From contig SUWG01000002.1 in assembly GCA_015061625.1 (NCBI GenBank), forward strand, positions 1 through 64,000: 64,000 nt of DNA. Reading direction: 5' to 3'. Position numbers and translations under genes: made by a program. Source of the stretch: Lentisphaerota bacterium. GTDB lineage: Bacteria > Verrucomicrobiota > Lentisphaeria > Victivallales > Victivallaceae. Below are positions 49,224 through 51,673 of the stretch, in pieces (the stretch's first letter is position 1; each line of letters begins with the position of its first letter). The notes under the pieces were generated by a model, which was given only the letters and a program-made list of their open reading frames with translations, searched no databases and was not told the origin of the DNA.

Positions 49224-49664
49224 TTATCTGGAATATCCGGCTGATGACCCATCCCGGTTATAGTGATAAGTTGTGCCGCCACTGCTGCGGGAATGTCCTG
49301 CGGATGACCCATCCCGGTTATAGTGATAAGTTGTGCCGCCACTGCTTCGGGAATATCCCGCCGATGACCCATCCCGGTTGTAGTGATAGGTTGTGCCGCC
49401 ACTGCTGCGGGAGTGGCCCGCTGACGACCCATCCCGGTTGTAATAATAGGTCGTTCCGCCGCTGGTTCTGGAATATCCTGCGGATGATCCATCCCGGTTG
49501 TAATAGTAGGTTGTTCCGCCGCTGGTTCTGGAATAGCCATCCGACGATCCATCCCGATTATAATACCGCGCTCCGCCGGGGCGGTGAAAGAAGCGGTTGT
49601 CTCCGGCATTGACAGTAAGAAATGCACCGATGATAACAGAGAGAGCCAAAACAGATTTTTTCAT
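49224..49664 (-). CDS. Secreted protein made of 20-residue tandem repeats
   Basis: A 146-residue protein. Signal peptide MKKSVLALSVIIGAFLTVNA, then about six repeats of a 20-residue unit with the pattern YYNRDGSSAGYSRTSGGTTY. The DNA period is 60 bases and positions differ mainly between Tyr/His and Thr/Ser. The repeats are rich in Gly, Ser, Tyr and Arg and probably disordered or a beta-repeat on the cell surface. It has its own promoter, divergent from the FGE-like gene. Repeat number may vary between strains. Confidence 0.75.
   Translation of the reverse strand: MKKSVLALSVIIGAFLTVNAGDNRFFHRPGGARYYNRDGSSDGYSRTSGGTTYYYNRDGSSAGYSRTSGGTTYYYNRDGSSAGHSRSSGGTTYHYNRDGSSAGYSRSSGGTTYHYNRDGSSAGHSRSSGGTTYHYNRDGSSAGYSR
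49231..49566. repeat. 60-bp tandem repeat array
   Basis: About five and a half near-identical 60-bp units, each containing GGAATATCC or a variant, GATGACCCATCCCGGTT and GTTGTGCCGCCACTGCT, encode the repeats of the secreted protein above. Confidence 0.85.
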
Positions 49665-49949: not shown

Positions 49950-50789
49950 ATGAAAAAGTTTTTATGGATTTTTTGTGCATTTTTCATCATGTTTCAGGCG
50001 GTGGCCGGAGAAAAGCCCACCTCTCTGACTGCATCTTCTTCTTTTACAGTCAGACTTCCGGGCAATGTTACGCTTGAGTTGGTGCGAATTCCCAAAGGTG
50101 AATTTATGATGGGTAGTCCGGCAACTGAAGCCGGGCGGCTTGATGATGAAATCCAACACCGGGTAACTTTAACCAAAGACTTCTTTTTGGGTAAATATGA
50201 GGTGACCCAGGCACAATGGCAGGCGGTAATGGGGAATAATCCATCATATTTCAGAGGTCTGCGCCTCCCGGTGGAGAACGTTAGTTGGCATGATGCGATC
50301 CAATTTTGTGAGACATTGACGGCAACAGGACACCGGGAAGGTTGGCTGCCGGAAAATTGGAAGTTCACTTTGCCGACCGAAGCACAGTGGGAATATGCCT
50401 GTCGTGCCGGTACGGATACACCCTTTTCTTACGGGAGTTCATCAGATGCTTCCAAAATGAATTTTGATGGTAACAATCCGTATGGCGGAGCAAATAGAGG
50501 AGTTGATCGTCAGAGTACTGTTGAAGTTGGTTCTCTTGGCTACCGGAATAATTTCGGCTTGTATGATATGCATGGTAATGTATGGGAATGGTGTCTGGAT
50601 TATTATGGCAGTTTCAGCAGAGGAGCCGTAAGTGATCCGGTGTGTGAAAGCGGCTCTGACCGTGTCTTACGGGGTGGCTGTTGGTTCAGCTACGCGATGG
50701 GCTGCCGCTCGGCGAGCCGGAACTACTACTACCCGGCGCTCAGGCCCATCAGCGTCGGCTTCCGCTTGGCCCTTGTCGAAGTTCAATGA
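49950..50789 (+). CDS. Secreted FGE/SUMF1-fold (C-type lectin fold) protein with DGR-like variable end
   Basis: A 279-residue exported protein with signal peptide MKKFLWIFCAFFIMFQAVAG. The rest is the formylglycine-generating-enzyme-like domain: LVRIPKGEFMMGSP, FFLGKYEVTQAQWQAVMGNNPS, PVENVSWHDAIQFCETL, LPTEAQWEYACRAGT, NNFGLYDMHGNVWEWC. This fold is used as display scaffold in diversity-generating retroelement targets. The C terminus has the expected frame CWFSYAMGCRSASRNYYYP then ALRPISVGFRLA, with C-ending codons at the variable positions. It is therefore more likely a variable binding protein than an enzyme. The start at 49950 fits the signal peptide. Confidence 0.88.
   Translation: MKKFLWIFCAFFIMFQAVAGEKPTSLTASSSFTVRLPGNVTLELVRIPKGEFMMGSPATEAGRLDDEIQHRVTLTKDFFLGKYEVTQAQWQAVMGNNPSYFRGLRLPVENVSWHDAIQFCETLTATGHREGWLPENWKFTLPTEAQWEYACRAGTDTPFSYGSSSDASKMNFDGNNPYGGANRGVDRQSTVEVGSLGYRNNFGLYDMHGNVWEWCLDYYGSFSRGAVSDPVCESGSDRVLRGGCWFSYAMGCRSASRNYYYPALRPISVGFRLALVEVQ
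50676..50777 (+). other. DGR-like variable region (VR) at the 3' end of the FGE-like gene
   Basis: From codon GGC (50676) on, base composition jumps to GC-rich, with almost every codon ending in C or G. Positions where DGR targets carry template AAC codons are here TTC, AGC, TAC, GGC, AGC, AAC, TAC, TAC, TAC, CTC, CCC, ATC, AGC and GTC: all end in C and differ only at the first two bases. Codons between them (TGC CGC TCG GCG, CGG, CCG, AGG, GGC TTC CGC) are free of adenine or conserved. The unchanging GGCTTCCGC end would be the initiation-of-mutagenic-homology side. No template repeat or reverse transcriptase was found in the window. Confidence 0.75.
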
Positions 50790-50902: not shown

Positions 50903-51673
50903 ATGAATGGAAAAAATCTGATTTTGCTGGTCGGGCAATCCAATATGTCCGGGCGTGGGTTTCTTACTGAAAATGATATTTATGAAATTCCCGGTTTGAC
51001 TGCCATCCGCCGGGATTTTGAATGGATACCCGCTATTGATCCATTCAATTTTGACCGATTGAATCTGCTGGGCTTGAATGATTCTCAAGATCCTTTTGAA
51101 GTTCGGGGATTGACCATCGGTGATAAACGCCGGTGCGGGGTAGGGCCGGGGCGGACATTCGGGAAATTGTTTCTGGAAAAGTTCTCCGATCATCCGGTCG
51201 GTCTTATTCCCGCTTCGATCGGCGGTACTCCCATTGCCAGTTGGCTGCCCGGTGGTAAAGATCCTCATTCAGAAGCACATCCTTATGATGATGCTCTGGT
51301 TCTTGCCCGCAAAGCAATGGAACAGGGGGAAATTGTGGCGGTATTATGGCATCAGGGGGAATCTGATGCCAACAGCCATACTGAAAACTACAAAGAAAAA
51401 TTACAGACTGTGATCGCTAATTTCCGGAATGATTTGGATTTGCATCATGTCCCCTTTATTCTCGGCGGTCTCGGTGATTTCCTCGATGCCTCATGGAATG
51501 CCGAAACTTATAATCAAATGATCCGGCAAGTCGCCAACGAAACTCCTCTGGCCGGATTCGCTTCTGCTGAAAATCTGGTTGACCGTGGGGATAAATTACA
51601 CTTTGATACCGCCAGTCAGTATATTCTGGGAGCGCGATATTTTGCTGAATATTGCCGGATAACAGGGAAATGA
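50903..51673 (+). CDS. SASA-type carbohydrate esterase (sialate O-acetylesterase-like)
   Basis: A 256-residue SGNH hydrolase. The catalytic serine is in LLVGQSNMSGRG, then PASIGGTPIASWLPGG, the oxyanion motif VLWHQGESDA, and DKLHFDTAS with the catalytic His. There is no signal peptide, so it would deacetylate sugars in the cytoplasm. The start lies 113 bases after the FGE-like gene. Confidence 0.87.
   Translation: MNGKNLILLVGQSNMSGRGFLTENDIYEIPGLTAIRRDFEWIPAIDPFNFDRLNLLGLNDSQDPFEVRGLTIGDKRRCGVGPGRTFGKLFLEKFSDHPVGLIPASIGGTPIASWLPGGKDPHSEAHPYDDALVLARKAMEQGEIVAVLWHQGESDANSHTENYKEKLQTVIANFRNDLDLHHVPFILGGLGDFLDASWNAETYNQMIRQVANETPLAGFASAENLVDRGDKLHFDTASQYILGARYFAEYCRITGK

Follow-up and report, generated by a model that had tools for sequence, protein, structure and literature searches.

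Is the 3' end of the gene at 49950-50789 the variable repeat (VR) of a diversity-generating retroelement (DGR), and, if so, what could rewrite a target that has no DGR-type reverse transcriptase (RT) beside it? The gene lies in a 64,000-nucleotide stretch of a Lentisphaerota bacterium (GCA_015061625.1, contig SUWG01000002.1), here called the window. It very probably encodes a secreted binding protein of the C-type-lectin (FGE) fold, with a DGR variable repeat as its C-terminal patch. Its features are laid out as follows:

49950..50789, + strand: DGR-type target gene; its 279-aa product combines a signal peptide and an FGE/C-type-lectin domain (from the ORF, Pfam and a PDB relative)
49950..50009, + strand: putative signal peptide MKKFLWIFCAFFIMFQAVAG, read from the sequence by eye
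50076..50771, + strand: FGE-sulfatase domain (Pfam)
50679..50753, + strand: variable repeat in which about 15 codons of NNC type have changed within a fixed frame (RGG.W...A..CRSA.R....PA.....), from paralog and known-template comparisons
50754..50774, + strand: GC-rich 3' end of the repeat (GTCGGCTTCCGCTTGGCCCTT), likely IMH-like, with a single difference from the copy on contig C18 of the same genome
50782..50813, + strand: candidate 3' target-site element TTCAATGATTGG-N15-CCTTG, spanning the stop codon

The open reading frame ends at 50789, and ATG 49950, which gives a signal-peptide-like N terminus, is preferred as its start over 49776. Pfam matches the product to FGE-sulfatase (E=2.8e-47). 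Among solved structures the nearest in sequence is 2y3c (E=1.1e-29), which is TvpA, the variable protein of the Treponema denticola DGR, and the alignment extends through the variable end of both. For an AlphaFold2 model (mean pLDDT 79), built with the protein and relatives from its genus, TvpA is again the top structural match (Z 27.9, rmsd 2.6, 222 residues, 38% identity). PvdO and enzymatic FGEs rank below it, and the matches listed include two further DGR proteins, TaqVP and Mtd. The product thus has a C-type-lectin/FGE fold with the VR at its C terminus, the arrangement of a DGR target. The active-site cysteine pair of catalytic FGE is C336/C341 in the human enzyme. Judged by eye, the second of these corresponds to the cysteine of CRSA in the window protein, and the first aligns with a variable codon that is Ser in this gene and Cys in the C18 copy. 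By analogy with known DGR targets, the product may be a secreted binder with a randomised patch, and it may be displayed at the surface and bind a ligand. TvpA is likewise a secreted FGE/C-type-lectin protein with a C-terminal VR, in the frame RVLRGG.W...A..C...R....P..R....GFRLA (PDB 2y3c; PMC4891356), although it has a lipoprotein signal where the window protein has, by eye, a plain signal peptide.

Read in frame, 50676-50777 runs GGC TGT TGG ... CTT GTC, with the coordinates, frame and framework residues that the initial annotation described. Codons ending in C are enriched in the VR, where they make up 20 of 33; upstream they make up 33 of 174 (Fisher p=3e-6). That annotation had 14 of 16 variable codons ending in C; the pattern stands, and a recount puts it at 13 of 15. 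The VR pattern is confirmed to exceed chance on three tests, which draw on a paralog, on real template repeats and on a unique 3' element.

The paralog, at C18:35019-35159 (minus strand), is the only other copy of the repeat in the genome (assembly of 2.7 Mb in 44 contigs, 90.9% complete). It lies at the end of an 867-aa TPR-TIR-membrane-FGE protein (L005:7031-9634, contig C18, minus strand; the membrane segment is putative, by eye) that carries almost the same variable domain, with the same VR and 3' element. Inside the VR, the two genes differ over 33 codons at 12, 10 and 3 sites in codon positions 1, 2 and 3, and outside it, over 137 codons, at 9, 13 and 15 sites. Positions 1 and 2 together therefore differ at 22/66 sites (33%) inside against 22/274 (8%) outside (p=7e-7), while third positions show no excess (3/33 against 15/137, p=1.0). 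The first- and second-position excess that had been proposed as a check is thus present, between paralogs rather than between strains. Third positions of the two VRs are not homogenised relative to their flanks within this genome, which gives no sign that one template recently served to recopy both. The C18 sister places the same domain on a TIR protein, in the manner of the putative antigen sensors of PMC10907252.

Comparison with real templates gives the second test. A DNA pattern for the inferred template, with asparagine codons at the variable positions, was run against the GTDB genome collection. It matches 19 contigs, with translated frames such as RGGSWNNNARNCRSANRNNNNP.NRNNN.GFRLA, and 12 of the 19 have a DGR-type RT ((I/L)G..SQ motif and YMDD) within the fetched stretch. 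Many of them have a VR close by whose differences from the template lie almost exclusively at adenines. They include Oligosphaera ethanolica, an isolate, and G070, a Victivallales metagenome-assembled genome of the window's own family. Against the RT-adjacent template L070, from another genome, the window VR mismatches at 20/31 adenines and at 8/68 other sites (p=1.9e-7); counts for the C18 VR are identical. Taking as nearest the template with the fewest mismatches outside adenines tends to lower p, and the control was given the same choice: an ordinary FGE gene on contig C34 of the same genome shows no adenine bias against its nearest templates (p=0.28 or 0.2-0.3). The 8/68 non-adenine mismatches reflect templates from other lineages. 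Changes in the VR therefore fall at template adenines, as in a DGR, with the templates taken from other genomes.

The third test lies past the stop codon. When the window, C18 and G070 VRs are aligned, the last from another genus, identity continues through the stop codon into TTCAATGATTGG, a spacer and CCTTG. This spaced element has four occurrences in 78 family genomes: both VRs here, the G070 VR and, inverted, the G070 template repeat (TR); a reversed-pattern control has zero. Three of the four sites were used to build the pattern, and what is independent is its rarity elsewhere and the inverted fourth site. The element ties the window gene to a DGR that has both a template and the C-terminal part of an RT. 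That DGR (Victivallales MAG Hm464_bin66, JAISIP010000056.1, L065/L078) shares the window's family, the frame and TTCAATGATTGG...CCTTG after the VR; unlike the present case it has a TR and an RT C terminus, and the target there is a short ORF that looks like a truncated kinase fusion. Homing in BPP-1 needs sequence just 3' of the VR (PMC3240598), and a target-site role for the 3' element is plausible on that analogy, as an IMH role is likely for 50754..50774. Single-strand folding of four flanks gave no stable hairpin 3' of the VR of the kind seen in BPP-1.

Together, these observations suggest a model whereby an error-prone RT would copy a template repeat with AAC-type codons and misread its adenines. 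The cDNA would then home to the VR and replace it, with the GC-rich 3' end and the 3' element just past the repeat as guides; homing and the binding function are steps that we infer. The missing cassette would hold an AAC-rich template with a 3' end matching GTCGGCTTCCGCTTGGCC and an inverted flank CAAGG...CCAATCATTGAA.

Where, then, is the cassette? Two parts of a complete DGR, a template repeat in the same genome and a DGR-type RT, are absent from this assembly. Searching with each half of the repeat, variable codons set to N and 3 mismatches allowed, returns only the two VRs from the 90.9% of the genome that is assembled, and so does a whole-assembly search for the predicted template 3' flank and the 3' element. 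Pfam RVT_1, one DGR RT and an 11-member DGR RT profile find no DGR-type RT in the assembly. The initial annotation, which took the gene for a secreted FGE-fold protein with a DGR-type VR at its C terminus, is borne out by the adenine-specific mismatches, the position 1 and 2 excess, the 3' element and the TvpA match. It also reported no RT nearby, and no DGR-type enzyme lies near the gene or elsewhere in the assembly. Its expectation of a template repeat and RT elsewhere in the genome finds no support in the assembled part, where template halves, 3' flank and DGR RT are all absent; they may lie in the missing part.

The 33 congeners have no DGR RT or template either, though several carry such VRs (two in G006, and others in G027, G030 and G032). 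Run over the 78 family genomes, the 11-RT profile finds DGR-type enzymes in G055 and, as a C-terminal piece, in G070 only. Viral contigs hold no exact match for the VR frame or its 3' end, and a search with the G070 RT fragment yields no viral relative. Other enzymes were set aside. The RTs of G027 and G013 are not of DGR type, and the one tested, that of G027, scores best as UG26, of the DRT (defence-associated RT) class; those in G009, G031, G066 and others are group II-intron-like by motifs. The G027 and G013 enzymes (L012, L013) are about 450 aa long, with GVPFGAPTACLLAN and YADD. The G055 enzyme (L037, contig C27; GSQVSQ, YMDD) has a different target: it lies near a DUF6273-like protein (by eye) with a TYAVAPACVIC-type ending, and the locus may be a prophage DGR.

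Where other members of the genus carry DGR-like VRs, third positions inside the VR stay conserved and positions 1 and 2 vary. Third positions differ between G027 and G006 at 3/33 in the VR against 86/136 outside (p=9e-9), and between the two G006 genes at 6/33 against 74/115 (p=3e-6); for two ordinary FGE genes taken as a control, the contrast is smaller and not significant (9/33 against 63/150, p=0.17). Such conservation is as expected for recopying from conserved templates, and the shared GC-rich codon use of the VRs may also lower third-position differences.

The window gene is an orphan DGR target, its cassette being unassembled, on another replicon or lost. On balance, the cassette probably acts in trans from DNA outside the assembly. 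Could it instead be gone? The two targets may have been diversified by a DGR since lost from the lineage, leaving frozen repeats, which is a serious possibility though not the probable one. The absence of RT and template from this assembly and from the 33 congeners speaks for such loss, as does the precedent of T. denticola, whose DGR has several remote targets and in which some isolates have target genes with neither RT nor TR (PMC4891356); RT and TR are known in other strains of that species, whereas this assembly has none. The missing fractions of G000 (this genome), G006, G027, G030 and G032 multiply to about 4e-5, a figure taken from completeness values with independence assumed, so random incompleteness alone is a poor account and some systematic cause of the absence is needed. 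Either DGR cassettes systematically drop from assemblies or bins, or they sit on other replicons, or they have been lost repeatedly. Loss fits poorly with the two VRs of this genome, which are both open, with their framework intact and the 3' element retained past the stop codon. Metagenome assemblies may also lose DGR cassettes: the G070 contig JAISIP010000056.1 begins inside the RT gene. Trans action and disrupted DGR loci both have precedent in Thiohalocapsa PB-PSB1 (PMC10907252).

Ordinary fast evolution, or positive selection on FGE-fold binding loops with no retroelement at all, is very improbable. The frame (RGG.W ... CR ... R ... GFR) is largely common to ordinary FGE proteins such as the C34 gene, and control FGE pairs in the genus are also somewhat variable there, yet the position 1 and 2 excess is absent in such ordinary pairs (control 5:9 vs 48:63) and the C34 gene lacks the adenine bias against templates. 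Selection would also leave the switch to NNC codons and the shared 3' element past the stop unexplained. The genome's other FGE genes (a kinase-FGE on C22, and that on C34) are not DGR-like.

That the window and C18 genes are diversified by the retron-like RT at L004:7806-8750 (contig C5, 314 aa) has next to no chance of being right, for although it is the sole RT that Pfam RVT_1 finds in the assembly, its best model is retron type III-A (RT_III-A, E=2.9e-93), GHLPQGAVTSP replaces the DGR (I/L)G..SQ motif, and no template-like repeat of the VR exists anywhere in the genome and hence none beside this enzyme. The enzyme adjoins a gene of unknown function.

An orphan target served in trans has parallels among the DGR-diversified putative antigen sensors of multicellular bacteria (PMC10907252), in which FGE/CLec VR domains are fused to TIR, NTPase or kinase, some targets are secreted, and loci may be trans-acting or incomplete. 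Unlike in those systems, neither target here has an identified NTPase conflict locus beside it, among neighbours that are partly annotated, and the RT is absent from the assembly. The present genome adds two DGR targets, one secreted and one TIR-fused, in a Victivallales genus for which we found no DGR description in the literature. They also show that DGR targets can be recognised with neither template nor RT in the assembly, whereas RT-anchored surveys miss such targets, a limitation stated in PMC8144416. The 3' element offers a concrete handle for locating the missing cassette.

The inverted copy of the element in G070 has counterparts at other DGR loci with both repeats, where the 3' flanks of TR and VR often match each other in reverse complement. 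In L065 the coordinates are 357-386 and 960-988. Among loci with the present framework the match is found in 9 of 13, with shuffle p<0.01 or 0 in 500 for L067, L069, L071, L074, L076, L078, L082 and L084 and p=0.014 for L036; L082 is closely related to L084, and partial self-pairing occurs in some flanks. It is weaker in L075 (p=0.04) and L070 (p=0.06), and L066 and L077 give no signal. Outside this framework, the match is present in L123 and in BPP-1 (L125) and absent from the phage-contig DGRs L119, L120, L121 and L124. The flanks may represent pairing between RNA and target or a shared palindrome. We found no description of such inverted flanks in the DGR literature searched, which was largely open-access; if confirmed, they would bear on how DGR RNA finds its target. 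One idea, which we regard as unlikely, is that this branch of FGE-type DGRs recognises its target via a 3' flank inverted at the template locus. Spacer RNA downstream of the template could then pair with the target sense strand just past the repeat, and orphan targets would be served in trans by any cassette with a matching spacer, perhaps on a mobile element.

Two neighbours in the window complete the picture of the locus. On the minus strand, 49224-49664 encodes a small secreted-looking protein with repeats of about 20 residues (GGTTYYYNRDGSSAGYSRS), for which Pfam gave no match. Directly downstream of the target gene, 50903-51673 is a SASA-type carbohydrate esterase gene (E=2.9e-50).
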